From positions 1 to 57,206 of the forward strand of contig JAFUWN010000049.1 in assembly GCA_017483465.1 (NCBI GenBank): a stretch of DNA of 57,206 bases. The letters run 5' to 3'. The position numbers and the translations under genes were made by a program. The notes under the pieces were generated by a model. It was not told the DNA's origin. It saw only the letters and a list, made by a program, of their open reading frames with translations, and made no database searches. Below are positions 4,116 to 23,318 of the stretch, piece by piece (position 1 is the stretch's first letter; each line of letters begins with the position of its first letter). This stretch comes from Oscillospiraceae bacterium. GTDB taxonomy: Bacteria > Bacillota > Clostridia > Oscillospirales > Ruminococcaceae.

Positions 4116-4141
4116 TTCAACACCTCGCTTCACTTTTATAT

Positions 4142-4171: not shown

Positions 4172-4244
4172 TATATTTATCTAATAATTTACAAAAAATT
4201 CATTTATTGTAAATTTGATTTTAAGAAATTTTTTGAAAAAATTC

Positions 4245-4273
4245 TTGACAAATTTTTAAAGTCGTGATATAAT
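4245..4273 (+). promoter_or_regulatory. Consensus promoter of ncRNA copy 1
   Basis: Perfect TTGACA (4245-4250), 17-nt spacer, perfect TATAAT (4268-4273). A near-palindrome AAGAAATTTTTTG with AAAAAATTCTT overlaps the -35 region and is kept in copy 2, so it may be an operator. Confidence 0.75.
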
Positions 4274-4279
4274 AAATTT

Positions 4280-4840
4280 ATCATCTTAAAAATTGAATAC
4301 AACACTTCGGTACGTCAGTCCTTGATGGAGGATACTGTCTTCCAGCCGGGAATCATGCGCCATGACCTCTGTTTATCAGAGCGAGCGAGTTTATAAAGTG
4401 GAGTGACCAGCAGAACACCGCCAGTTCTGTGTGGCAATGAAAGTCAGGGGCAGGGTACTTCCGTAAAAAACGGCTGTGCGGCATTGTAACCGCCAGAGGC
4501 TTGAAACCTATGCAGACAGAGAGGTCGCTGTTTGACCGGAGTTGTTCCTTTTGCCGGAGGGGGCAGACTGTCAGTCTGTCAGATAATTTCCGTCACCTTC
4601 AATCTATAGAAGCAGAGATTCTGCTGAAGGAAAGTGCTGTTACGGAAAGTAACAGTGAAACTGCCTGAGAGTGGGCAGTGCAAAGTACAGAAATTTATTG
4701 TATACTTTGCGATAAAATGTTGTGAATATGATTTCTATGGTCGTATTCTGTAATTATGTCGATGATTATAATTGGTATTTATATAAAAAATATATATGCA
4801 GGTGCATCACAGCGGTGCTGTAGTGTGCCTGCATTTTTAT
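4280..4840 (+). ncRNA. Large structured non-coding RNA, copy 1
   Basis: About 560 nt from the predicted start to an intrinsic terminator (hairpin 4797-4833 followed by T-rich sequence). There is no convincing ORF. It aligns along its whole length with copy 2 (5072-5590), with conserved blocks such as GTACGTCAG, CCAGCCGG, GGGTACTTCCGTAAAAA and AAACCTATGCAGACAG. Helices visible in both copies are 4411-4416/4424-4429, 4513-4519/4528-4534, 4637-4643/4649-4655 and 4660-4665/4674-4679; several carry compensatory changes between copies, which supports selection on RNA structure. The size would suit ornate large RNA classes such as ROOL, GOLLD or OLE, but I do not recognise its consensus and do not assign it. 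It is divergent from cas3 and upstream of a mobile element. Confidence 0.75.
4797..4840 (+). terminator. Terminator of ncRNA copy 1
   Basis: Long hairpin with arms TGCAGGTGCATCACAGC and GCTGTAGTGTGCCTGCA (one mismatch, some G-U pairs), loop GGT, then TTTTTATATTTT. The equivalent hairpin follows copy 2, with changed but still pairing bases. Confidence 0.7.
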
Positions 4841-4879
4841 ATTTTCAGAGGCAAAGCAACAGATTTGAGGTGATGGTGT

Positions 4880-5005
4880 AAAATACCCATTGTCCTGCAA
4901 TTTCTTTACTAAATGCTTTTGCAAACTGACTTCAAAAATACCCTGTTTTTTCAAGTGTAATGGAAGTTCCTTCCAGTTTTCGTTTGAATTTTCATTTCTT
5001 GTAAA
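4880..5005 (-). pseudogene. Decayed duplicate of the cas3 5' end
   Basis: Plus-strand bases 4887-5000 closely follow 3990-4103 (shared CATTGTCCTGCAATTTCTT, GCAAACTGACTT, TTTTTTCAAGTGTAATGGAA and CGTTTGAATTTTCA), which on the minus strand encode the first residues of Cas3. The copy then jumps to the sequence equivalent to 4209 onward, so the cas3 start codon, ribosome site and cas promoter are deleted while the ncRNA promoter is kept. It also carries small indels that break the reading frame. It shows that ncRNA copy 2 arose by tandem duplication of a cas3-5'-end plus ncRNA unit at this locus. Confidence 0.8.
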
Positions 5006-5036
5006 TTGAATTTCAAGAAATTTTTTGAAAAAATTC

Positions 5037-5065
5037 TTGACAATTTTTTAAAATCGTGCTATAAT
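5037..5065 (+). promoter_or_regulatory. Consensus promoter of ncRNA copy 2
   Basis: Perfect TTGACA (5037-5042), 17-nt spacer, TATAAT (5060-5065), with the same -35-overlapping near-palindrome as copy 1. Confidence 0.75.
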
Positions 5066-5071
5066 AATTTC

Positions 5072-5590
5072 ATCATCTTGAAAATAGAACAGAATACTCC
5101 AGTACGTCAGCTCTTGATGGGGGACAGATGTCGTCCAGCCGGAGAACATGCGCTGTGACCCCTTGTTGCGGGGCGAGCGGGAAAGTGAACATACGAGCAA
5201 GGAAAGCCATCCTTGTGCGGCGATGAAATTCAGGAGCAGGGTACTTCCGTAAAAAGCGGCTGGGTGGTGTTGTAACCCTTTGAGGCTAAAAACCTATGCA
5301 GACAGTGAGGTCGCTGTCTGGCTGGAGCTATTCCTTTTGTCGGAGGGGGCAGACCTACAGTCTGTCAGAGAATTTCCGGCATCTTCAACCTATGAAAGCA
5401 GAGGTTCTGCTGAAGGAAAGTGCTGTTATGGAGAATAGCAGTGAAACTACCCGGTGGTGGGTAGTACAGACAGATTTTTAGGTTTATGTTCTGCAAAAAA
5501 ATTGAAAATTAAAGATTAAATTGAATATAGAGATAAATAAATGTGCAGGTGCATTACAGTACAAATGTAATGTGCCTGCACTTTTTTAGA
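5072..5590 (+). ncRNA. Large structured non-coding RNA, copy 2
   Basis: About 520 nt from the predicted start to the terminator at 5544-5590. It is homologous to copy 1 over its full length but considerably diverged, and the divergence keeps helices: CAAGGA/TCCTTG (5198-5203/5210-5215) replaces CAGAAC/GTTCTG, ACTACC/GGTAGT (5446-5451/5460-5465) replaces ACTGCC/GGCAGT, CTGTTAT/ATAGCAG (5423-5429/5435-5441) replaces CTGTTAC/GTAACAG, and CAGACAG/CTGTCTG (5299-5305/5314-5320) replaces CAGACAG/CTGTTTG. The short ORFs that cross it (for example at 5296) are not conserved in copy 1. Function unknown; two maintained copies argue against a passive relic. Confidence 0.75.
5544..5590 (+). terminator. 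Terminator of ncRNA copy 2
   Basis: Hairpin TGCAGGTGCATTACA / TGTAATGTGCCTGCA (5544-5580) followed by CTTTTTTAG. Confidence 0.75.
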
Positions 5591-5653
5591 TTCTGAAAAA
5601 ATTCTGCAACAGACTGGAGGGGAGAGTATTATGACTTAGAAAATTAATTCTGC

Positions 5654-5688
5654 CACATCGTGTTCACAACACGGTGTGATTTTTATTT
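5654..5688 (+). terminator. Second intrinsic terminator before the RepA-like gene
   Basis: 11-bp stem CACATCGTGTT / AACACGGTGTG with loop CAC, followed by ATTTTTATTT. Together with the ncRNA terminator it insulates the RNA pair from the mobile-element genes. Confidence 0.6.
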
Positions 5689-5762
5689 GTACATGGCTGA
5701 TGGTCAGTCAGCCGATAATTTTTTTCTGAATTTTTCAGAAAAAATAAAAGGAGGAATGCCCA

Positions 5763-6869
5763 ATGAACAATTCAATTCCTGTCTACAGCAGCGACTATGT
5801 AATAAACACACAGTTCGGCCAGCCGAAATTTGTAGTGCATCAGATGCTGTATGCCGGTCTGTATCTGTTAGCCGGTTCACCGAAAGTCGGCAAGTCATGG
5901 TTTGCACTGGATTTGTGTCTGTCAGTGGCGAACGGGGAACAGTTTCTGAAACACGATACTGCAAGAGGACAGGTTCTGTATCTCAGTCTGGAAGATACAC
6001 TGGTCAGAATTCAGAACCGACTCTACGAACTGACGGAAGAATCATCAGATAATCTGTTCATCGCTGTCGAGTCGAAAGCTCTGGGAAATGGTCTGGAACA
6101 ACAGCTCGAACAAAGCAAGAGAGATTTTCCCAATCTGAAACTGGTAGCGATTGATACGTTCCAGAAAATCAGACAGGCAACTGACATCAGCTACGGAACG
6201 GATTATAAAGAATTATCTTCTCTGAAATCTCTCGCTGACAGATTACAGATTGCAATTCTGCTGATTCATCACACAAGAAAGTGCCACGACAATGACCCGT
6301 TCAATATGATTTCTGGAAGCACTGGAATCCTTGGATGCGTTGATGGCGGTATGGTATTAATTGAGGAAAAGAGAGGCAGCAGAAAAGCTAAACTCTACTG
6401 TACGGGACGTGATATTGAAAGTCAAAAGTACAGCTTAACATTTCAGAAGAGCCGATGGATTGTGGAAGATGATGTTCTGGAACGCAAACCGGATAACTTT
6501 TCGTTTGTGATTCATGACTTGATGATGAAAGAATATTCCTTTCACGGTTCAGCAACTGAACTGTGTGAGCTGCTGCATCAATATTTTCAACTGGAATATT
6601 TTCCGAACAGAATCACCCGTGACCTTGTTCAGCATACGGATGAACTGAAAAATTATGGTGTGCTGTTCCGTTCCAGAAAAAGTCACGGCTGTCGTTCCAT
6701 CGAACTGAAATATATTTTCGAGGGGGACAGTAGCAACGGTGCACTGCTGTGGGTGAAAGTTACTGACCCTACTGTCCCCCGAAACTCTGAAAACGTCTAT
6801 CCTGCTTTAATTTCATCGGGTGGTGGTAACTCTCAGGGGGACGGTAACTTTCCAAACGGGTGGCAGTAA
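5763..6869 (+). CDS. RepA-like AAA_25 replicative helicase/ATPase of a mobile element
   Basis: 368 residues. The RecA-fold core has Walker A AGSPKVGKSW (residues about 38-47), Walker B LVAIDTF and the downstream LLIHHTRK with a paired histidine, typical of hexameric RepA/RSF1010-type helicases found in plasmids and mobilisable elements. The C-terminal third looks like a helical or winged-helix regulatory region (SATELCELLHQYF and RDLVQHTDELKNYGVLFRS). The start is supported by AAAGGAGG 9 nt upstream. It is the first gene of element 1, followed by an RHH gene, tnpW and a serine recombinase. The end of the gene and the following bases contain repeated GGGGGACGGTA-like strings. Confidence 0.75.
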   Translation: MNNSIPVYSSDYVINTQFGQPKFVVHQMLYAGLYLLAGSPKVGKSWFALDLCLSVANGEQFLKHDTARGQVLYLSLEDTLVRIQNRLYELTEESSDNLFIAVESKALGNGLEQQLEQSKRDFPNLKLVAIDTFQKIRQATDISYGTDYKELSSLKSLADRLQIAILLIHHTRKCHDNDPFNMISGSTGILGCVDGGMVLIEEKRGSRKAKLYCTGRDIESQKYSLTFQKSRWIVEDDVLERKPDNFSFVIHDLMMKEYSFHGSATELCELLHQYFQLEYFPNRITRDLVQHTDELKNYGVLFRSRKSHGCRSIELKYIFEGDSSNGALLWVKVTDPTVPRNSENVYPALISSGGGNSQGDGNFPNGWQ

Positions 6870-7190: not shown

Positions 7191-7667
7191 ATGCAGTCAC
7201 ATAATACAGAAAAAAGAAACCAAAATCCGCAGAATACAGGACTTTCCGAAGTCGCATCTGCCGAAAAGAAGATGAGATTCGGAATGAAACTGTATCCGGA
7301 AACACTGAAGATGATTGACGACTTCTACACACAAGACAAATGCTCCTCACGCTCGGAATTCGTTGAGAAAGCTGTCAGATTTTATTGTGGTTACCTGATG
7401 AGCAAAGAGAATCTGGTGACTGATTTTCTTGCTCCGCAGATTGGAATAATCACAGAAGGCATCGTCAAGGGAAGTGAGCAGAAAATTTGTCGTGCAATGT
7501 TCAAAATGGCTGTGGAACTTGGTGCAGTCACACACATGCTTGCCGCTATGAATCAGATTGATGAGAAAACTCTGTTCAAATTACGCTCCATGTGTACAGA
7601 TGAAGTGCGGCAGATTAACGGCGTAATCAATTTTGAAAAAGCCGTTCGTTATCAGCATGAAGAATAA
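7191..7667 (+). CDS. Ribbon-helix-helix (MobC-like) accessory protein, element 1
   Basis: 158 residues. The segment MRFGMKLYPETLKMIDDFYT followed by SRSEFVEKAVRFYCGYL has the RHH pattern: a short strand, a helix, then an SRSEFVEKA second helix. The C-terminal part is helical and conserved with the element 2 homologue (shared VGA.TTHM/LGAVTHM, QIDE and MC..EVR.INGVI patterns). RHH proteins of this kind bind oriT or operator DNA and assist a relaxase in mobilisable elements. The start has AAAAAGGAGG upstream. No relaxase gene accompanies it, so mobilisation in trans or a purely regulatory role are both possible. Confidence 0.65.
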   Translation: MQSHNTEKRNQNPQNTGLSEVASAEKKMRFGMKLYPETLKMIDDFYTQDKCSSRSEFVEKAVRFYCGYLMSKENLVTDFLAPQIGIITEGIVKGSEQKICRAMFKMAVELGAVTHMLAAMNQIDEKTLFKLRSMCTDEVRQINGVINFEKAVRYQHEE

Positions 7668-7778
7668 GAATGATAGAGTAAAAACTTTATTTTTCAAACA
7701 AAAATTTTAATCAAAGAAAGGGTGAACTGTTATGTACGAAATTAACATTGCATTACAGAATAAGGGGATAAAAGATAT

Positions 7779-7988
7779 ATGGGAACGACTGTTTACAATC
7801 TTGAAAAAGCACATTGTCAGGATAACCCTGCTGTGCAGTATGCTGAATTTAAAGACTATCAGATTGGCAAAGTAACCTATCGGGTGTGGTCAGCCTTCAC
7901 AGGCAAGCAGAATGCCGCTGATATTCTTTCAGGACTGATGCTCAGAAAACTGGAATCAGGCGAACAGAACACTATGCAATCATCATAA
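7779..7988 (+). CDS. tnpW: TnpW-like transposon protein, element 1
   Basis: 69 residues, closely similar to the element 2 copy at 15174 (shared YNLEKAHCQDNPAVQYAEFK and VWSAFTGKQNAADILSG). Small TnpW-type proteins are encoded directly ahead of TnpX-type large serine recombinases in Tn4451-related elements; their function is unknown. The ATG has an AAGGGGATAAAAG ribosome site. Its conservation in both elements, while upstream genes differ, shows that tnpW and the recombinase travel as one module. Confidence 0.75.
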   Translation: MGTTVYNLEKAHCQDNPAVQYAEFKDYQIGKVTYRVWSAFTGKQNAADILSGLMLRKLESGEQNTMQSS

Positions 7989-8055
7989 CTGAAAGCCTGA
8001 TTTTTAGTCGAAACTTACAAATTTTATGAAAGCAGGCGGATATTACTGGATTTTT

Positions 8056-8083
8056 CAAGCGTTTTATGATATAATGATGCTTG
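8056..8083 (+). promoter_or_regulatory. Recombinase promoter with flanking inverted repeat, element 1
   Basis: TATAAT (8070-8075) lies between CAAGC (8056-8060) and GCTTG (8079-8083); the layout is kept in element 2 (CAAGT ... TATAAT ... GCTTG). A clear -35 is not visible, so the promoter may need an activator or be occluded by a regulator. Confidence 0.4.
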
Positions 8084-8122
8084 TAAGACCGGCATGTCCG
8101 CTGCTGAGATTGGAGGAAACAA

Positions 8123-9745
8123 ATGAGCAGACAGCAGCATTATAAAGCGGCACTCTATTGCAGATTATCTGTTGATGATGGCAACTTTGGCGGAAGTGTC
8201 AGCATCGAAACACAGAAAATTCTGCTCGAACAGTACTGCAAAGACCATGCCATTACAGATTATACGTTCTACTGTGACGATGGGGCATCCGGAACAAATT
8301 TCATGAGAAAAGCCTTTCAGGAGATGTACAATGACATTCAGGACGGAAAAATCAATCTTGTGATTGTCAAAGACCTGTCACGGTTCGGAAGAAATTACAT
8401 CGAAGTCGGAGCCTATGTGGAAGAATTCAAGGAGAATGATGTGCGGTTTATCGCCGCAGATGATAACTATGATTCCGCAGTCAATGGTGATGATTTGATG
8501 TTCCCGATGAAGAATGTCATCAACGAGATGTATGCCCGTGAGGTATCGAAAAAGACAAAAGCCGCTAAAAAAGCAAAGGCTCGGAACGGTCAGTTCATGG
8601 GTTCAAAGCCGCCGTTCGGCTACAGACTCGACCCGAATGACAGGCATCATCTGATTGTAGATGAACCCGCTGCCGAAACTGTCCGGAAAATTTTCCGGCT
8701 CTCGGCTGAAGGAATCGGCTATAACAAGATGGTGAAAATGTTCAGGGCAGAGCATGTTCTCACGCCGATTGCCTATTTCAATCTGCACAATCCGGACTAT
8801 TTCAAAGCCGATTACTGGCGGCAGGAATTCGACTGGCACGTGACTTCTATCAGGACGATTCTGAACAATGAAGTCTATCTTGGAAAGATTATCTACGGCA
8901 AGCAGAAATCAAAATCCATGAAAAGCAGGTCGAAAGTGAATGTTCCAAGAGAGGACTGGATTGTGACGGAAAATTGTCATGAACCGATTATCAGTCAGGA
9001 ACTCTGGGACACTGTGCATAAAATCGTGAGTGCAAAGCATCGTCCTGCTAAGACCGGAGAAGTTCAGATGTTCGCCGGACTGATTCGCTGTTCCAACTGC
9101 GGTCATGTTCTGACCTACTCACAGAAACAGCGGAAAGATGGTTCTTATCACGGAGCATACTCCTGCTGGATGTACAAGACTCACGGCAAAGAATATTGTT
9201 CTTCGCACTATATCACATTCGATGCAGTGTATCAGCTTGTGCTGGCAGATGTGCAGAGAGTGCTGTTCCAGTACCGGAATGATGAGAAAGCATTCAGGAA
9301 ATTTCTGGACAGCAAATATCAAAACATGTCGGACAGAGAAGCGGTTCAGATTCAGTATGACTATGAACAGAAAGAAAAACGCTGTGAAGAACTTGACAAA
9401 ATCATCAGTAAGCTGTATGAAGATAATGTTCTCGGCAGAATCAGTGATAGTCGTTACGAAATCATGTCGCAGACCTATGAAGCCGAACAGGAAGAAATCC
9501 GGAAACAGCTTCCTGAACTGAAAGCAAAGCTACAGGAATTACAGGCACAGTCAAATGCATCGGACAAGTTCATCAGTGTAATTCGTAAATATACGCATAT
9601 TCAGGAACTGGATGCAGGTATTCTGAACGAACTGATTGATAAGATTCTGGTGCATGACAAGGAACAGGCTCGGGACGGCACAGTCTTTCAGCAGGTGGAA
9701 ATCTTCTACAGATTTGTCAGAAAATTGAATAACGAAGTATCATAA
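8123..9745 (+). CDS. TnpX-like large serine recombinase, element 1
   Basis: 540 residues. The N-terminal resolvase domain has the catalytic Ser16 in YCRLSVDD and the arginine motif DLSRFGRN (R87, R90), followed by the recombinase domain (KKTKAAKKAKARNGQF, PPFGYRLDP), a zinc ribbon (CSNCGH with later Cys) and a C-terminal coiled-coil/DUF4368-like region (YEQKEKRCEELDKIISKLYE). Large serine recombinases excise and insert an element through a circular intermediate without host factors. GGAGG precedes the ATG. All motifs look intact, so this copy is probably active, in contrast to the second copy. Confidence 0.9.
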   Translation: MSRQQHYKAALYCRLSVDDGNFGGSVSIETQKILLEQYCKDHAITDYTFYCDDGASGTNFMRKAFQEMYNDIQDGKINLVIVKDLSRFGRNYIEVGAYVEEFKENDVRFIAADDNYDSAVNGDDLMFPMKNVINEMYAREVSKKTKAAKKAKARNGQFMGSKPPFGYRLDPNDRHHLIVDEPAAETVRKIFRLSAEGIGYNKMVKMFRAEHVLTPIAYFNLHNPDYFKADYWRQEFDWHVTSIRTILNNEVYLGKIIYGKQKSKSMKSRSKVNVPREDWIVTENCHEPIISQELWDTVHKIVSAKHRPAKTGEVQMFAGLIRCSNCGHVLTYSQKQRKDGSYHGAYSCWMYKTHGKEYCSSHYITFDAVYQLVLADVQRVLFQYRNDEKAFRKFLDSKYQNMSDREAVQIQYDYEQKEKRCEELDKIISKLYEDNVLGRISDSRYEIMSQTYEAEQEEIRKQLPELKAKLQELQAQSNASDKFISVIRKYTHIQELDAGILNELIDKILVHDKEQARDGTVFQQVEIFYRFVRKLNNEVS

Positions 9746-9785: not shown

Positions 9786-9838
9786 GTCTCTTTAAAAACA
9801 GCCTGCGGTCATCAGTTCGAGTCTGATTACCAGCTTTC
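9786..9838 (+). other. Right-end / attachment-like sequence of element 1
   Basis: Just after the recombinase, TCTCTTTAAAAACAGCC is followed by CGGTC, a 5-bp stem ATCAG/CTGAT and the loop TTCGAGT, exactly the geometry of a tRNA T arm. The equivalent after the second recombinase (17131-17175) keeps the frame and loop but changes the stem bases in a pairing way. An inverted copy, GATTCGAACTGATG, lies just upstream at about 9752. It may be an attachment site or a tRNA 3' fragment; no complete tRNA folds here. Confidence 0.45.
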
Positions 9839-9994: not shown

Positions 9995-11017
9995 TCAGAA
10001 GTCCCTTATTTTTTCAGCATCTGCGAATTGGATAATTTGACCAGGAGTAGTGTGCTGATAAGCATATTCCTGATGCATATATTTAGCGATTTTCTTTCCA
10101 TTATAAGAGCCAAATTGATGAATCACTTTATCAAGGATTTTAATTTCTTTTATCGACAGGCTTGAGAAATCAGCTTTATCGTTTGGAAGAATATGATAGA
10201 TAGAATAATCGAAATTTTCAGGAGTTTCTTCTTCAACATGGATTCCGGGCAAATTCATGATGTTCTCATGTCCAATAGGCAATGCCCCCAGTTTTTTATG
10301 CATATACACCAATCCAGTAATCGCAATATGATTTTCTTTAAAACTAAGTGCATCACTATACCAGAGAAGTTTCATCAGAAGTACCTTTTTTAAATTGGAA
10401 ATTTTTAATGCAAAATAATTGATAATCTGTTCCAACTTATCAATATTTAGAACGATATAGCCGTTTTCAGTACATGGCTGTGAATAGAGTGCATAATAAT
10501 TCAGGAGATTCTGTCTCTTGATAAATGCATCAGTAATAAATTCAGATATTTTGCTTCTGATAGTAGCATATCGGTCAGATTCAAATACGGACTGATTTTT
10601 TTCAAGCATTTTCAGCATGATAATAGGATTTTCCATAATCAGCCGAAGTTCATTATCATAGGTAGAATCCTGAATTGCTTTGGATTCGTATCTTGAAATG
10701 GTGACATCTCCCCAACCAAGCAGACGTGCAAGTTCAACCTGAGACAAATCAAATTTATGACGAAACGCTACAATTTCATCAGAAGTTAAAAGTCCTTTGA
10801 GTTGCCGGTAAGCGTTTCTTGCACGGAGTAGATTTTCATCCATTACTTTCGGAGGAATGAAATAAGCATCTTCATCATCCTCACCAAGTGTTGAGCAAAA
10901 ATAAACGGTCTCCTCGTATTCAATAGTAGTATCTTTAATAATTGTTATCGCTTTCCTACTTTTAATAATTGCCGGATGCATTTTGCACATAGGGCATAAA
11001 ATTACCTTTTCTTCCAT
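9995..11017 (-). CDS. Panacea-type antitoxin: zinc finger, HTH and SocA/DUF4065 domains
   Basis: 340 residues. The N-terminus has a YgiT/MqsA-like zinc finger (CPMCKMH, then YFCS), followed at about 75-125 by an XRE-type HTH (FRHKFDLSQVELARLLGWGDVTISRYE), and from about 190 a Panacea (DUF4065/SocA) domain (LEQIINYFALK, LLWYSDALSF, GLVYMHKKLGALP). Panacea domains neutralise many unrelated toxins, so this fusion is likely the antitoxin and autorepressor of the upstream gene. Gene order is toxin first, antitoxin second, with 42 bp between. Two TATCAATTGATA palindromes at the operon promoter are probable HTH targets. Confidence 0.8.
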   Translation of the reverse strand: MEEKVILCPMCKMHPAIIKSRKAITIIKDTTIEYEETVYFCSTLGEDDEDAYFIPPKVMDENLLRARNAYRQLKGLLTSDEIVAFRHKFDLSQVELARLLGWGDVTISRYESKAIQDSTYDNELRLIMENPIIMLKMLEKNQSVFESDRYATIRSKISEFITDAFIKRQNLLNYYALYSQPCTENGYIVLNIDKLEQIINYFALKISNLKKVLLMKLLWYSDALSFKENHIAITGLVYMHKKLGALPIGHENIMNLPGIHVEEETPENFDYSIYHILPNDKADFSSLSIKEIKILDKVIHQFGSYNGKKIAKYMHQEYAYQHTTPGQIIQFADAEKIRDF

Positions 11018-11059
11018 AGCATTTCCCTCTCGCTTTCTTAAATAAACACATAATATAAA

Positions 11060-11470
11060 TTAACTATATGGAAGTTTATCTATTTTATATTCGGCAAAAT
11101 GAAATGAAATACACAACACAACCTCATTCTTGCCAACTTCTTTTATTTTTATTTTAATATACACTTGCTTAGATTGAATTTCTTTGATGAATATATGTAA
11201 TAATTCCAAACCAGAATCAGAACTTTTCCTATCTCCAAGAGTTTCGTAATAATGTGAAACTTCCAAAGTAAGAATTTCGTTCATAACATCTTCTGTATCA
11301 TATTCGAGCTGTTCCAGACAATAGGAATTTGTAAATTCTGGTTTTGATTTTTCAGATTTTCTGGTTGGAATAAACATAAATCCATCTGTACCTTCAGTTT
11401 TGAGTTTTTCTTTTACTTTTCTAAGAAAATCATTAACATCATTTCTTTTTAAATGAAGTGATACTTTCAT
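11060..11470 (-). CDS. Candidate toxin partner of the Panacea antitoxin
   Basis: 136 residues from the ATG at 11470 (MKVSLHLKRNDV); the 18-nt extension to a GTG is the ribosome site AAAGGAAG. I do not recognise a toxin family. It is a small alpha/beta-looking protein, rich in Lys and Glu, ending in a strand-rich segment (VYIKIKIKEVG, VVLCISFHFAEYKI). Its role is inferred from position: it is first in an operon with a Panacea antitoxin behind an autoregulation-type promoter. It could equally be an unrelated accessory protein. Confidence 0.55.
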   Translation of the reverse strand: MKVSLHLKRNDVNDFLRKVKEKLKTEGTDGFMFIPTRKSEKSKPEFTNSYCLEQLEYDTEDVMNEILTLEVSHYYETLGDRKSSDSGLELLHIFIKEIQSKQVYIKIKIKEVGKNEVVLCISFHFAEYKIDKLPYS

Positions 11471-11491
11471 GTTATAACTTCCTTTCACTTT

Positions 11492-14722: not shown

Positions 14723-15110
14723 TGAAAAAATCAGAACTGGAATCAGTATCAGCAAGCGTTTGCTCAAAGAATGTGATGCTTATCTGAAGAAAAGCGAATT
14801 TGAAAACCGTTCTGAATTGATTGAATCTGCTTTGAAACTATTCCTTGTGACCAGAAATATTTCCGAAAAATCAGAGGTTCTTGTACCGGAGCTTGCCGAC
14901 TGTATCACCAAAGCCAGCGATAAAGGCATCATGAAAATTTCAAAAGGTCTGTTCCGATACGCTGTAGAAGTAGAAATGTTGGTTGCATTACTGGCAGACA
15001 GGCTGTGCATAAACAAAACTGAACTTGAACAAATCAGGAAAGATGCTGTGAACAATGTTCGCCAAACAAAAGGGAAAATCAACCTTGATGAACTGATTCT
15101 TAAAAAATAA
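14691..15110 (+). CDS. Ribbon-helix-helix protein, element 2, second copy
   Basis: 139 residues. RTGISISKRLLKECDAYLKK followed by NRSELIESALKLFLV is a clear RHH pattern; the C-terminus (FRYAVEVEMLVALLAD, VNNVRQTKGKINLDE) parallels the neighbouring RHH protein, so the two look like ancient paralogues. The ATG lies inside the end of the previous gene, with GGGGTG upstream. The pair could act as a heterodimer at the oriT-like block. Element 1 has only one such gene. Confidence 0.65.
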   Translation: MKTLSNSNRDDEKIRTGISISKRLLKECDAYLKKSEFENRSELIESALKLFLVTRNISEKSEVLVPELADCITKASDKGIMKISKGLFRYAVEVEMLVALLADRLCINKTELEQIRKDAVNNVRQTKGKINLDELILKK

Positions 15111-15173
15111 AGAAAAGATGGTCTGCTATATATAAGTTAATGGCACATTGCAAAATAAGGGGACTAAAGCTAT

Positions 15174-15395
15174 ATGGGGACAATTATTTATAATCTTGAG
15201 AAAGCACATTGTCAGGACAATCCCGCTGTACAGTATGCCGAATTTAAAGACTGCCAAATTGGAAAAGTGACTTATCGAGTATGGTCAGCCTTTACAGGAA
15301 AACAAAATGCTGCTGATATTCTTTCAGGACTAATGCTCAGAAAACTGGAATCAGGCGAACAGAACGCTGTACAATCACCACAATTGAAAGCCTGA
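15174..15395 (+). CDS. tnpW: TnpW-like transposon protein, element 2
   Basis: 73 residues, nearly the same as the element 1 protein at 7779 (conserved EKAHCQDNPAVQYAEFKDC and FTGKQNAADILSGLMLRK). Preceded by AAATAAGGGGACTAAAG, as in element 1. It sits 121 bp before the recombinase, with a conserved leader sequence in between. Confidence 0.75.
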   Translation: MGTIIYNLEKAHCQDNPAVQYAEFKDCQIGKVTYRVWSAFTGKQNAADILSGLMLRKLESGEQNAVQSPQLKA

Positions 15396-15516
15396 TTTTT
15401 AGTCGGAACTTACAAATTTTATAAAGCAGGCGGATATTGCTGGACTTTCCAAGTGGTTTATGATATAATGATGCTTGTAAGACCGGCATGTCCGCTGCTG
15501 AGATTGGAGGAAACTA

Positions 15517-17127
15517 ATGAGTATACAGCAGCATTATAAAGCAGCACTCTATTGCAGATTGTCTGTAGATGACGGCAATTTTGGCGGAAATGTCAGCATA
15601 GAAACACAGAAAATTTTGCTTGAACAGTATTGTAAAGACCATGCTATTACAGACTATACGTTCTACTGCGATGATGGAGCATCCGGAACAAATTTCCTGA
15701 GAAAAGCCTTTCAGGAGATGTACAATGACATTCAAAACGGAAAAATCAACCTTGTGGTTGTCAAAGATTTGTCACGTTTCCGCAGAAATTACATTGAAGT
15801 GAGAGCTTATGTAGAAGAATTCAAGGAAAATGATGTGCGGTTTATCGCCGCAGATGATAACTACGATTCCACAGTCAATGGTGATGATTTAATGTTTCCA
15901 ATGAAGAATGTCATCAATGAAATGTATGCTCGTGAAGTATCGAAAAAGACGAAAGCCGCTAAGAAAGCAAAGGCTCGAAGTGGTCAGTTCATGGGTTCAA
16001 AGCCGCCATTCGGCTACAGACTCGACCCGAATGACAGACATCATCTGATTGTAGATGAACCCGCTGCCGAAACTGTCCGGAAGATTTTCCGGCTCTCGGC
16101 TGAAGGAATCGGCTATAACAAGATGGCAAAAATGTTCAGAGCAGAACATGTTCTCACACCGATTGCCTATTTCAATCTGCACAATCCGGACTATTTCAAA
16201 GCCGATTACTGGCGGCAGGAATTCGACTGGCATGTAACTTCCATTAGAGCGATTCTGAACAATGAAGTCTATCTTGGAAAGATTATCTACGGCAAGCAGA
16301 GGTCAAAATCCATGAAAAGCAAGTCAAAAGTGAATGTTCCAAGAGAAGACTGGATTGTGATGGAGAACTGTCATGAACCGATTATCAGTCAGGAACTCTG
16401 GGACACGGTGCATAAAATTATGAGTACCAAACACCGTCCTGCTAAGACTGGAGAAGTTCAGATATTCGCCGGACTGATTCGTTGTTCCAACTGTGGTCAT
16501 GTTCTAACTTACTCACAGAAACAGCGGAAAGATGGTTCTTATCATGGAGCATACTCCTGCTGGATGTACAAGACACATGGCAAAGAATATTGTTCTTCGC
16601 ACTATATCACATTCAATGCAGTGTATCAGCTTGTGCTGGCAGATGTGCAGAGAGTTCTGTTCCAGTATCAGAACGATGAGAAAGCATTTAAGAAATTTCT
16701 GGATAACAAATATCAGAGCATATCAGACAGGGAAGCCATTCAGATTCAGTATGACTATGAACAGAAAGAAAAACGCTGTGAAGAACTTGACAAAATTATC
16801 AGCAAGCTGTATGAAGATAATGTTCTCGGCAGAATCAGTGACAGCCGCTATGAAGTCATGTCACAGACCTATGAAGCCGAACAGGAAGAACTCCGGAAAC
16901 AGCTTCCCGAACTGAAAGCCAGAATGCAGAATTTACAGGCACAGTCAAGAGCATCGGATAAGTTTATCAGTGTAATTCAGAAATATACACATATTCAGGA
17001 ACTGGACGCAGGTATTCTGAACGAACTGATTGATAAAATTTTGGTACATGATAAGGAACATTCTGAGGACGGTACAGTATTTCAGCAAATAGAAATCTTT
17101 TACAGATTTGTTGGAAAACTTAATTAA
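15517..17127 (+). CDS. TnpX-like large serine recombinase, element 2 (possibly impaired)
   Basis: 536 residues, a close homologue of the recombinase at 8123 with the same domain order: resolvase domain (Ser16 in YCRLSVDD), recombinase domain, CSNCGH zinc ribbon and coiled-coil C-terminus. Two changes stand out in the catalytic region: the normally invariant glycine in DLSRFGRN is arginine (DLSRFRRN, residue 89), and the glycine of EVGAY is arginine (EVRAY, residue 96). The first recombinase keeps both glycines. This suggests reduced or lost activity although the frame is intact. GGAGG precedes the ATG. Confidence 0.88.
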   Translation: MSIQQHYKAALYCRLSVDDGNFGGNVSIETQKILLEQYCKDHAITDYTFYCDDGASGTNFLRKAFQEMYNDIQNGKINLVVVKDLSRFRRNYIEVRAYVEEFKENDVRFIAADDNYDSTVNGDDLMFPMKNVINEMYAREVSKKTKAAKKAKARSGQFMGSKPPFGYRLDPNDRHHLIVDEPAAETVRKIFRLSAEGIGYNKMAKMFRAEHVLTPIAYFNLHNPDYFKADYWRQEFDWHVTSIRAILNNEVYLGKIIYGKQRSKSMKSKSKVNVPREDWIVMENCHEPIISQELWDTVHKIMSTKHRPAKTGEVQIFAGLIRCSNCGHVLTYSQKQRKDGSYHGAYSCWMYKTHGKEYCSSHYITFNAVYQLVLADVQRVLFQYQNDEKAFKKFLDNKYQSISDREAIQIQYDYEQKEKRCEELDKIISKLYEDNVLGRISDSRYEVMSQTYEAEQEELRKQLPELKARMQNLQAQSRASDKFISVIQKYTHIQELDAGILNELIDKILVHDKEHSEDGTVFQQIEIFYRFVGKLN

Positions 17128-17130
17128 AAA

Positions 17131-17180
17131 CATCTCTTTAAAAACAGCCAACGGTCGCTGGTTCGAGTCCAGTCACAAGC
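17131..17180 (+). other. Right-end / attachment-like sequence of element 2
   Basis: TCTCTTTAAAAACAGCC, CGGTC, then the T-arm-like stem GCTGG/CCAGT with loop TTCGAGT, matching the sequence after the first recombinase. The stem is different from the element 1 stem yet still pairs. Confidence 0.45.
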
Positions 17181-17193
17181 TTAATAAAAAGAG

Positions 17194-20117: not shown

Positions 20118-23100
20118 ATGAAAAAATTTTTATCTGCGGTATGTGCACTGTTAGTAACAGCTGCCTGCTGTCCGGCAGTACAGTCTTTTGCGGATAATCC
20201 GATTGTACAGTCTGTCTATACATCTGATCCGGCTCCTATGGTGTATGGCGATACCCTCTATGTTTATACCGGTCATGATGCGGATAATGCTGATAACTAT
20301 ATCATGCCGGACTGGAAATGCTATTCTACGACAGATATGCAGAACTGGACTGATTACGGAACTATTCTTTCCTGTGATGATTTCGCATGGGCAGAAGAGA
20401 ACTCCGCATGGGCGGCACAGTGTGTTGAACGAAATGGTAAATTTTATATGTATGTAACATTAGTTCCGTCTTCCGGAGGCGGCAGAGCGATCGGTGTTGC
20501 AGTTGCGGATTCTCCTACAGGACCTTTTAAAGATGCCATCGGCAAACCGCTCTGCGGACCGGACTGGGCTTTTATTGACCCGACTGTCTTTATTGATGAT
20601 GACGGACAGGCTTATTTATATTTCGGCAATCCAAATCCTTATTATGTCAAACTCAATGAAGATATGATTTCCTATTCCGGTGATATTGTAAAAGTGCCGA
20701 TTGATAACCAGAGTTTCGGCACGAATCCGGCAGGTGACGGCACAAGCTATACAGAAGGCCCCTGGTTCTATAAAAGAGGCGATTTATATTATTTATTATA
20801 TGCCGCAAACGGAATCCCGGAAAATATCGCCTATTCTACAAGTCCTTCTCCCACAGGCCCTTGGACTTACAGAGGCGTAATCATGCCGACAGAAGGCAGA
20901 AGCTTTACCAATCATTGCGGTGTTGTCGATTTTCAAGGGAAATCTTATTTTTCCTATCATAACGGTGCATTAGAGGGCGGCAGCGGTTTTGACCGTTCTG
21001 TCTGCATGGAGGAATTTTCTTACAATTCTGACGGCACTTTCCCGACAATCAAGATGAGTGAAAAAGGCCCCTCACAGATCAAGGCATTGAATCCCTTTAT
21101 TCGTCAGGAGGCAGAAACAATCTGCTGGGAATCCGGTATCGAAACAGAGCCCTGTTCGGCAGGCGGAAGAAATATCGCCAATATTGAAAACGGTGATTAT
21201 GTTAAAATAAGCGGTGCAGACTTCGGAGACGGTGCAGAGCAGTTTACTGCAAGTATTGCCTCTGCGACAAATGGCGGCAAAATTGAAATCCGTCTCGACA
21301 GCAAAGACGGAACACTGCTCGGAACTTGTGATGTTCCCGCAACAGACGGCTGGCAGAACTGGAAAGAAGTTTCCTGTGATATTGATACAGTCTCCGGCGA
21401 ACATGATATTTATTTCGTCTTCACCGGCGGCAGCGGATTTTTATTTAATATAGATTGGTGGCAGTTCTCCGGAGCAGGCAGTTCTGCACTGTCTTCGGTT
21501 TCGGAAGACGGTATTTTATTCAGAAGTACATTTGAAAACGGTTCCGACAGCTGGACGGGCAGGGGAGCGGCTTCTGTAGAAATGTCTTCTCAGGAATCCT
21601 ATCAGGGAAGTAAGGCTCTGTATATTTCCGGCAGAACTGCTGCCTGGAACGGAACTTCTAAAAAACTGAATGCTTCTGCGTTTGTTCCGGGGAAATCGTA
21701 TAGTTTTTCCGTAAACGTTCTTTGTCCTGAATGTAAAGGAACAGATACTTTTTGCCTGAAACTCCAGTATCAGAACGCTGAGGGCGAAACACAGTACGCT
21801 TCTGTAGCACAGGGAACTGCTGCTAAAGGCGAATGGATTCAGCTTTCCAATACAGAATATAAAATTCCGGCAGATGCCTCAGATATGTATCTGTATGTAG
21901 AAACAGCTGATTCTAAAAACAGTTTTTATATTGATGATGCTGTCGGAGCAGTTTCCGGAACAGTAATTGACGGTGCCGGAAAAGGTTCGGCAAGGACGAT
22001 CATCAGAGGCGATGTCAACGGTGATGAAATAATTAATATCTATGACTGGATTCTGGCAAGAAAAGGCCTGCTGTACGGATTCGCAAACAGTTTTGATGAA
22101 AAATCTGCTGATGTCAATCAGGATAATATTGTCAGTACCACAGATCTTGTTCTGCTTCAGAAATATCTGAAAGGAAATATCACAGAATTTCCACAGCCGG
22201 AACTTCCCGAAAATCTGTGGGATGACTATATTGAAACCGCTTCTCCGGCAATGCAGAATTTTTATTCTGATGCAATTTATCAGTTCGGCAATACTTCCAG
22301 ATTATGGGAGAAAATCCAGAAAGCCCGGAGCGGTGAAAAAACAACAGTTGCTTATATCGGCGGTTCCATCACAGAGGGAAATCATCTGCCGACATGCTAC
22401 GCACAGAGATCGTTTGATTATTTCGCTGAAACATTCGGCACAGGCAGCAACTGCAATTTCATCAATGCCGGATTATCCGGAACTTCATCCGCTGTCGGCC
22501 TGATGAGAGCACAGAGAGATATTTTAAACGACAATCCGGATATTATCTTTATTGAATTCTCAGTCAATGACCATCCGGAAGAAATTTACAAGAAAAGCTA
22601 TGAAAGCCTTGTCCGGAAGTGTCTCTCTCAGGAGAATGCCCCTGCCGTTGTCCTGATTATCAACAGAGCAAAAGGCGGTTACTCCATGCAGGAACAAATG
22701 GCGAAAATCGGTGAATATTATGATCTTCCGGTTATCAGCATGGACAATGCTCTGACAAATGCTTTCAATTCCGGACTGCTGACAACAGATGATTATTATA
22801 CAGATGAATATCATCCTCATGCAGAGGGCTGTAAACTGATCTCTGACAGTATCGCTTATTTCTATCGGCAGGCTCTGAAATCGGAACATAAGACCGGAGC
22901 TTATACAATTCCGTCAGGCGGGGTCTATGGTTCGGAGTATGCTTCCGGCAGTATTATACCGCTGGCAGATCTTAAAAATTTCAGTTCCGGTTCCTTTAAG
23001 GCGGATAATTCTTATCCGAGATTTGCCTACGGATTCAATTTTGAAAAATATTCTGCCAACACACCCATGACATTCACGACAGAGGGAAAAGGCATTTTTA

Positions 23101-23318
23101 TCGTATATAAATCCAATCAGAATTCCAGTCTTGGCGTACTGAATGTGACAGTCAACGGCAAAACATCAGAAATTGACGGTAACCGTCTCTATGCATGGGG
23201 AGGCCCTGAAGCCGAATGTGCTTACATGCAGAACACTTCCGGAACACTGAATGTTTCTATTGACATGAAAAATGCCGGAACAGATTTCACAATCTGGGGA
23301 ATCGGTGTGATGAAATAA
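20118..23318 (+). CDS. Secreted bifunctional GH43-CBM6-CBM22-dockerin-SGNH esterase
   Basis: 1066 residues. Signal peptide 1-25; GH43 five-bladed propeller about 26-325 with D37 (SDPAP), D154 (FIDPT) and E213 (YTEGPW) at the expected base, modulator and acid positions; CBM6-like module about 327-450; CBM22/CBM4_9-like module about 461-612; type I dockerin about 628-691 (GDVNGDEIINIYDWILARKG, ADVNQDNIVSTTDLVLLQKY); SGNH hydrolase about 725-920 with S750 (GGSITEG) and D896/H899 (DEYHPH); C-terminal beta domain to 1066. It probably removes arabinose side chains and acetyl groups from arabinoxylan while docked in the cellulosome. The internal position of the dockerin is unusual. AAGGAGG precedes the ATG. 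Confidence 0.9.
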   Translation: MKKFLSAVCALLVTAACCPAVQSFADNPIVQSVYTSDPAPMVYGDTLYVYTGHDADNADNYIMPDWKCYSTTDMQNWTDYGTILSCDDFAWAEENSAWAAQCVERNGKFYMYVTLVPSSGGGRAIGVAVADSPTGPFKDAIGKPLCGPDWAFIDPTVFIDDDGQAYLYFGNPNPYYVKLNEDMISYSGDIVKVPIDNQSFGTNPAGDGTSYTEGPWFYKRGDLYYLLYAANGIPENIAYSTSPSPTGPWTYRGVIMPTEGRSFTNHCGVVDFQGKSYFSYHNGALEGGSGFDRSVCMEEFSYNSDGTFPTIKMSEKGPSQIKALNPFIRQEAETICWESGIETEPCSAGGRNIANIENGDYVKISGADFGDGAEQFTASIASATNGGKIEIRLDSKDGTLLGTCDVPATDGWQNWKEVSCDIDTVSGEHDIYFVFTGGSGFLFNIDWWQFSGAGSSALSSVSEDGILFRSTFENGSDSWTGRGAASVEMSSQESYQGSKALYISGRTAAWNGTSKKLNASAFVPGKSYSFSVNVLCPECKGTDTFCLKLQYQNAEGETQYASVAQGTAAKGEWIQLSNTEYKIPADASDMYLYVETADSKNSFYIDDAVGAVSGTVIDGAGKGSARTIIRGDVNGDEIINIYDWILARKGLLYGFANSFDEKSADVNQDNIVSTTDLVLLQKYLKGNITEFPQPELPENLWDDYIETASPAMQNFYSDAIYQFGNTSRLWEKIQKARSGEKTTVAYIGGSITEGNHLPTCYAQRSFDYFAETFGTGSNCNFINAGLSGTSSAVGLMRAQRDILNDNPDIIFIEFSVNDHPEEIYKKSYESLVRKCLSQENAPAVVLIINRAKGGYSMQEQMAKIGEYYDLPVISMDNALTNAFNSGLLTTDDYYTDEYHPHAEGCKLISDSIAYFYRQALKSEHKTGAYTIPSGGVYGSEYASGSIIPLADLKNFSSGSFKADNSYPRFAYGFNFEKYSANTPMTFTTEGKGIFIVYKSNQNSSLGVLNVTVNGKTSEIDGNRLYAWGGPEAECAYMQNTSGTLNVSIDMKNAGTDFTIWGIGVMK

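Follow-up and report, generated by a model that had tools for sequence, protein, structure and literature searches.

What are the two RNA-like units that lie between a cas3 gene and a mobile element in an Oscillospiraceae bacterium, and what might they do? The question is raised by positions 4245 to 5590 of contig JAFUWN010000049.1 (assembly GCA_017483465.1), a stretch of 57,206 nucleotides (nt) that was analysed as a whole and is called the window here. The original prediction, made from the sequence alone, described a tandem pair of large structured RNAs of an unrecognised class next to a type I-C cas operon, with a function in defence or in element maintenance. The two units represent one large RNA in two tandem copies that have diverged; this RNA is structured and very probably real. 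Very probably it is a divergent member of a class already known from mobile elements, the pemK RNA (Rfam family RF02913). As a whole, the locus is best explained by a cis-acting leader of the pemK class that sits on an integrated element and works by processive antitermination. We give this reading a probability of about one half.

Both units lie on the plus strand. Promoter 1 (4245-4273) and promoter 2 (5037-5065) each consist of TTGACA-17-TATAAT, with a 12 of 12 match in the promoter scan and a TG before the -10 element. With ends taken from promoter and terminator, that is, from the expected start to the T-run, copy 1 is about 560 nt long (4280-4841) and copy 2 about 515 nt (5072-5587). Terminator 2 (5543-5587), a hairpin of 16 pairs at 5543-5581 followed by TTTTTT, was found by a terminator scan. 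Terminator 1 (4796-4841) is a bulged hairpin at 4796-4833 with a T-run at 4834-4838; two scans picked up parts of its stem alone (4814-4829 and 4803-4827), and its full extent was read by eye. No open reading frame (ORF) of at least 90 amino acids lies between 4268 and 5659, and the longest ORF touching 4275-5600 has 62 amino acids. A protein-coding unit was rejected on the basis of these scans. The copies can be aligned from end to end, and blocks D1 and D2 are 83% and 86% identical. The original prediction had thus described the layout correctly, namely a perfect promoter, 520-560 nt without coding potential and a terminator hairpin for each of two alignable units, with the terminator of copy 1 detected only partly by the scans.

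Compensatory changes between the copies support a conserved structure. The helices that had been proposed were found in place. In helix P4, which was supported by pairing tests, CAGAAC/GTTCTG of copy 1 (4411-4429) is replaced by CAAGGA/TCCTTG in copy 2 (5198-5215), so that four pairs are altered on both sides, as predicted. Across 12 hand-chosen helices with 69 pairs, 15 pairs differ between the copies. Thirteen of them are still paired, nine through changes on both sides, and in the other two one copy lacks the pair. If sites changed independently at 17% each, about one pair altered on both sides yet still paired would be expected, along with 14 broken ones; the contrast is flattered, since the helices had been selected by eye for pairing. 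A less biased test, in which RNAalifold was run on eight sequences aligned with MAFFT, the two window copies (W1 and W2) and six related loci, gave -52.9 against -17.1 +/- 3.7 for 200 column shuffles. Single-sequence folding energy is modestly low without the terminator part (z of -1.6 and -2.2) and reaches z of -4.4 and -4.6 with it. The RNA cores of the two copies are 83% identical, and a cas3 fragment that was duplicated along with the RNA is just as similar to its source (83-84%), so identity alone is no proof of upkeep. It is the compensatory changes, not the identity, that argue for upkeep of both copies.

To which class does this RNA belong? No Rfam model reaches its gathering cut-off in the window. 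ROOL, GOLLD, OLE, raiA and HEARO are large RNAs of like size, and a search for them had been proposed. The window RNAs resemble these five in lacking coding potential and differ in matching none of their models: none was found at cut-off in the window, and none is among the 14 weak Rfam matches up to E 5 in 4180-5660. RNase P and group I and II introns were considered by eye and also have no Rfam match. The RF02913 model, which spans 61 nt and has a gathering cut-off of 34.8 bits, matches below this cut-off in both copies, with 19.2 bits at 4454-4513 in copy 1 and 20.5 bits at 5235-5299 in copy 2. The two matches fall at the same place in the alignment. Relatives in genomes G037 and G003 (loci L004 and L005) also score below the cut-off (26.0 and 22.4 bits), and locus L025 falls just under it with 34.2 bits. 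The three most divergent relatives have no RF02913 match at E 1.

For a test of homology without circularity, a covariance model (R2) of the core and 3' domain was made from five Rfam-positive pemK RNAs with a hand-written structure. These came from the 30 best-scoring Rfam-positive loci of a class sample, some of which are near-copies (e.g. five ParA loci). Earlier alignments of nine and eight loci, with three ParA-type loci or L058, were dropped, and these loci were left out of R2 because their first hairpin failed to align. R2 matches copy 1 at 4441-4581 (E 7.6e-6) and copy 2 at 5226-5357 (E 5.8e-8), both on the plus strand. Of the eight copies and relatives it recovers seven (W1, W2, L032, L031, L025, L024 and L027) and misses L026 at E 1; the best other match in the 200 kb searched has E 0.13. 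With strands chosen by hand in the eight sequences, the first hairpin (CCGU/ACGG) forms 32 of 32 pairs, and the AGG/CCU hairpin after UACUUC forms 24 of 24. The second core hairpin has non-standard pairs marked against R2 in both window copies.

The window RNAs therefore share with pemK RNA, at aligned places, the core UACUUCCGUAA, the first hairpin, the AGG/CCU hairpin and the CCUAUG end, and a PemK/MazF gene adjoins the RNA in three of their close relatives. They differ from the Rfam model in length (about 515-560 nt against 61 nt) and in score, and from pemK RNA in being tandem, with their own promoters and terminators and no PemK gene near. We hold with high confidence that they are homologous to the pemK class. 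Because they score below the RF02913 cut-off, we call them divergent pemK relatives and not Rfam members. A wholly new class was rejected because of the R2 matches, and the earlier view of an unrecognised class gives way to this assignment.

Close relatives of the window RNAs were found in few genomes. BLAST over 100 related genomes matched three, namely the genome of the window, G037 and G003. A covariance model (R1) of the four copies in these genomes had matches in 5 of 38 genomes of the genus, of which G013 and G024, the latter with two copies, were new, and a pattern scan of genome contigs added Ruminococcus sp. YE71 (L025). The first pattern scan of genome contigs returned no stretches. 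The second returned nine, among them L029 and L030 with weak R1 scores and L028 with none. One scan of viral contigs gave nine stretches, with a best R1 match of E 0.021, and another gave none; two queries each against phage records and plasmid records had no match. In the class sample, R1 matched 3 of 391 genomes, the window's own genome and two others with weak matches. These two matches, L022 (E 6.4e-4) and L023 (E 2.2e-3), lie in two other families and have no RF02913 match at E 1. The branch looks narrow, with the class-sample filters being stricter and the R1 fold partly wrong. The RNAalifold structure of R1 is probably wrong in part: it pairs UUCCGUAAAAA with UUUUGCCGGAG, contrary to the pemK fold. 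To this error we attribute the failure of R1 on the 30 Rfam-positive loci, where it found nothing better than E 0.35. RF02913 itself is above its cut-off in 119 of the 391 genomes.

Comparison of the window family with the Rfam-positive loci suggests an RNA that extends well beyond the Rfam model. Read by eye, the order of parts begins with a boxA-like word, a GGTACRTT-like word, the 5' strand of a long-range helix P1, a GCGCCANGAC-like word and GCGAGCG. It continues with the P4 hairpin, a GCGATGA-like word, the 3' strand of P1, the 61-nt pemK core and a hairpin Hd, after which a 3' domain is closed by helix He; for a few loci this reading covered part of the sequence. In the window, the 5' strand of P1 was read from the sequence at 4320-4325 in copy 1 (partner 4444-4449) and at 5112-5117 in copy 2 (partner 5230-5235). 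By eye only, a pseudoknot between a pyrimidine run before He and a G-run inside He is suggested.

The helices were examined by exchanging strands between sequences. Among the eight copies and relatives, the hand-picked strands of one sequence pair at 48 of 48 positions in each of P1, P4 and Hd and at 46 of 50 in He. With exchanged strands, pairing falls to 56% in P4, 59% in Hd and 78% in He. P1, Ha and Hc are weak evidence in this set, because their exchanged strands pair nearly as well (92%, 95% and 81%). An anchored test of P1 in 26 Rfam-positive loci gave a mean score of 15.3 for own strands against 10.2 for swapped ones. Own strands scored at least 16 in 11 of the 26, compared with 28 of 640 swaps, and topped all swaps in nine. 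For five sequences of the set of eight, the same test showed little difference (10.9 own, 9.9 swapped); anchors were missing in 7 of the 38 sequences, four of them Rfam-positive loci, and several others were visibly wrong. A noisy unanchored test for a long-range helix gave means of 18.4 own and 15.4 swapped in the 30 loci, with own strands above all swaps in five, and 16.0 and 15.8 in the copies and relatives, with own strands on top in one of eight. These comparisons suggest a larger RNA of 300-450 nt in which the 61-nt motif forms the core, accompanied by a boxA-like 5' element, a long-range helix and a 3' domain. This lead may be partly known already from the original description of the motif, reportedly that of Weinberg and others in 2017.

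The position of the RNA bears on what it might do. Directly downstream of the two copies, all on the plus strand, a Pfam scan identified an AAA_25 (DnaB_C-like) ATPase gene (5763-6869) and a large serine recombinase gene with Resolvase, Recombinase and DUF4368 domains (8123-9745). Between them lies a gene for a 158-amino-acid protein (7191-7667) that has no Pfam family and is ribbon-helix-helix-like by eye. The proposed adjacency to a mobile element is thus upheld. A sequence resembling the 3' end of a transfer RNA (tRNA) follows the recombinase at 9787-9836 and is, by eye, a possible attachment site; ARAGORN found no whole tRNA gene in the window. The serine recombinase module occurs twice, at 7713-9730 and 15109-17124, with 90% identical DNA and 93% identical proteins, and a tRNA 3'-end-like sequence was seen by eye after the second module too (17133-17182). 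Perhaps two elements have integrated in tandem. The recombinase modules and the tRNA-like sequences make it very likely that the RNAs sit on an integrated mobile element.

Similar surroundings are found elsewhere. The RNA of the relatives spans a few hundred untranslated nt, often after a gene for a sigma-like regulator, and lies upstream of a mobility, toxin or partition module whose first gene is on the same strand. Flanks of up to about 1.5 kb per side of the 30 Rfam-positive loci were compared, with 34 of 47 upstream ORFs (28 loci) and 55 of 64 downstream ORFs scanned; the 13 and 9 others were mostly farther away, shorter, or repeated ParB genes. Upstream ORFs have Sigma70_r4_2 in 15 cases, Sigma70_r4 in 15 and HTH_16 in six. 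Downstream ORFs have Resolvase (13), Recombinase (9), PemK_toxin (8), AAA_31, which is ParA-type (5), Phage_int_SAM_3 (4) and Phage_integrase (3). Among the closer relatives, L005 has the order sigma-like gene, RNA, PemK gene and DEAD-type (DinG-like) helicase. L025 has a sigma-like gene, the RNA, PemK and helicase (the last two by eye) as well as a serine recombinase gene, which L032 also has. In L009 the sigma-like gene comes after the RNA, and by eye a small protein and an integrase are seen at L012 and a helix-turn-helix protein and an integrase at L010. A single ORF at L004:2-1423 joins a MazF/PemK-like start, matching residues 8-39, to a DinG-like helicase; the two are separate genes in L005. 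From such positions, the RNA is probably a leader of mobile-element modules that acts in cis.

The other neighbour in the window is cas3. It starts at 4133 and diverges from promoter 1 at 4245, with 111 bp between them, and a fragment of its 5' end, recognised by sequence comparison, lies on the minus strand at 4884-5016, ahead of copy 2. A single duplication thus carried the RNA together with a piece of cas3, and the duplicated unit includes the promoter as well as the RNA. These facts could favour a defence RNA linked to the type I-C cas operon. However, no cas gene was seen among the ORFs listed at the six related loci, part of which were scanned with family models. No cas family is among the 25 families shown for the scanned flanks of the 30 loci, a set to which six rarer families upstream and five downstream do not belong. 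We consider a defence RNA highly improbable. Within the flanks covered, the relatives have no conserved cas association, and an RNA associated with clustered regularly interspaced short palindromic repeats (CRISPR) was rejected. Of the two functions first proposed, defence is not supported and maintenance comes nearer, in that recombination, toxin and partition genes often follow the RNA.

The toxin genes in these neighbourhoods raise another possibility, that the RNA counteracts or controls a MazF/PemK toxin, either as a type III-like antitoxin or in cis. PemK_toxin is found in 8 of the 55 downstream ORFs; such a gene also follows the RNA in L005 and, judged by eye, in L025, and L004 has it within a truncated fusion. 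An RNA upstream of a MazF-type gene, as in some relatives, would resemble a type III toxin-antitoxin system. ToxI-type RNAs consist of short repeats in tandem ahead of the toxin gene; in contrast, neither window unit contains repeats of at least 24 nt. Other genes come first in most of the 30 loci, and in the window it is the AAA ATPase gene. The genome of the window has two PemK genes, both on other contigs, and hence none for the window RNAs. An RNA antitoxin was rejected as the main role, since most loci have no toxin gene and the window contig has no PemK, and we regard this explanation as improbable in any form.

If the RNA is a cis-acting leader, its 5' end offers a clue to its action. 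A weak boxA-like element is present in copy 1 (CTTAAAAATTGAATA, 4285-4299) and in copy 2 (CTTGAAAATAGAACA, 5077-5091), both on the plus strand. Both are aligned with words of the relatives, that of copy 1 with TTGAAAAYTGAATA, and the copy 1 element is similar to the ribosomal RNA (rRNA) spacer in another genome from the class. Upstream of the core, the best boxA-like word reaches a shuffle p of at most 0.02 in 20 of the 30 Rfam-positive loci and in five of the eight copies and relatives, and downstream control stretches score at most 13 of 18. In genome G274, all seven spacers linked to 23S rRNA carry GTACCTTGAAAACTAAACAATG, and ACCTTGAAAACT precedes 23S rRNA; the latter word is common to these spacers and to L024, L026 and L027. 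This rRNA-spacer support comes from one genome, since eight of the nine genomes scanned had no match to the 23S word. Locus L066, near position 1500 in genome G296, which is without a 23S-word match, contains exactly TTCTTTGAAAACT followed by AAATAG and is another possible boxA leader.

An antitermination leader is suggested by the combination of a boxA-like start, a long untranslated folded RNA and an operon that follows. The nascent RNA would begin with the boxA-like element and then fold into P1, the pemK core and the 3' domain. The folded leader would make RNA polymerase processive in cis, and the mobility genes downstream would then be transcribed. In the window, two further terminator-like hairpins were found by terminator scans ahead of the next gene (5654-5714, plus strand), so that three such hairpins, the first being terminator 2, stand between copy 2 and the ATPase gene. 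No sigma70-like promoter (at least 9 of 12) was found on the plus strand in 5066-6000. Control by read-through would fit this arrangement. Known boxA antitermination leaders likewise have a boxA-like word near their 5' end, as in the rRNA spacer of G274. A further parallel is the LoaP leader of Bacillus velezensis, for which a passage of PMC12691694 describes a structured leader before an operon with terminators and a small hairpin bound by LoaP. The fold of the window RNA is not that small hairpin, as far as this passage describes it, and, unlike boxA and LoaP leaders, the relatives have few leader terminators. Antitermination, argued by analogy, is therefore offered only tentatively as the leader's action.

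Several observations weigh against the antitermination leader. The boxA-like word of the window copies is not above chance, with p 0.45 in W1 and 0.09 in W2, values that refer to the best word in the region and not to the aligned word. It is also non-significant in L031 (0.053) and in 10 of the 30 loci, and the boxA consensus was drawn in part from the loci themselves and partly chosen after seeing them. The exact word TTCTTTGAAAACT occurs in two of six genomes, at neither site in a 23S spacer. CYTTGAAAAYTGAATA occurs in 2 of the 38 genus genomes, in RNA loci only, so that the genus's own rRNA boxA was not seen. No sigma-like gene was seen next to the window RNAs, and the neighbour counts are not independent, because the loci were taken from the top of the score list and include near-copies. 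A terminator-like hairpin lies between the core and the first ORF in 3 of the 30 Rfam-positive loci (0.5 expected) and in none of the six relatives, where the finder was limited to loops of up to 9 nt; there is thus usually no leader terminator to read through. In the window itself, three terminator-like hairpins stand in the way, and both copies look like complete transcripts that end in terminators. Given their own strong promoters and terminators, the window copies may now be separate RNAs with at most some read-through.

The last points lead to the main rival, a stand-alone noncoding RNA of the element that acts in trans and possibly controls element genes by pairing or by protein binding. 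Each window copy has a full promoter and terminator, and the duplication included the promoters, as would suit such an RNA. Against it, a same-strand ORF begins 81 to 399 nt after the core in the six relatives, and no terminator was found between. This explanation appears unlikely to us. A riboswitch-like leader, which would sense a signal and switch the mobility gene downstream, has in its favour the conserved unpaired words, the upstream position and the cis-regulatory type of RF02913 in Rfam. However, terminators are few and the spacing to the ORF varies, so no consistent expression platform is present, and 515-560 nt is large for such a leader. It seems even less probable than an RNA antitoxin. 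The cis-acting pemK-class leader with processive antitermination remains the best account of the locus as a whole. A bolder version would make the 61-nt motif the heart of an unrecognised, boxA-dependent processive antiterminator of 300-450 nt. It would serve recombination modules, have a dedicated region-4 sigma-like regulator and be widespread on the mobile elements of Clostridia, with the window holding a tandem, self-terminated form. We put this forward as speculation that is more probably wrong than right.

Other genes were noted in the window. An MqsR-like toxin gene, just above the Pfam cut-off, lies within 9995-11488, beside a gene that joins weakly MqsA-like and helix-turn-helix parts with a SocA/Panacea domain. 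A cellulosome-type protein with GH43, CBM_6, CBM_4_9, dockerin and GDSL lipase domains is encoded at 20118-23318.

We know of no role for pemK RNA, and a literature search, judged by titles, found none on its function or on a boxA leader of mobile elements. In passages of three papers (PMC7657543, PMC11701678 and PMC11507696), pemK is listed among the test cases for structures or methods. A broader lead is that the Rfam model may describe the core of a larger RNA only: pemK RNA is above cut-off in 119 of the 391 genomes sampled from the class, while its model covers just 61 nt. Judging by the relatives, this motif would belong to a bigger folded RNA with a boxA-like start, frequently flanked by a sigma-like regulator on one side and, on the other, by genes for the movement, retention or protection of mobile DNA. 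An annotation label would thereby become a testable idea on how integrative elements are switched on.

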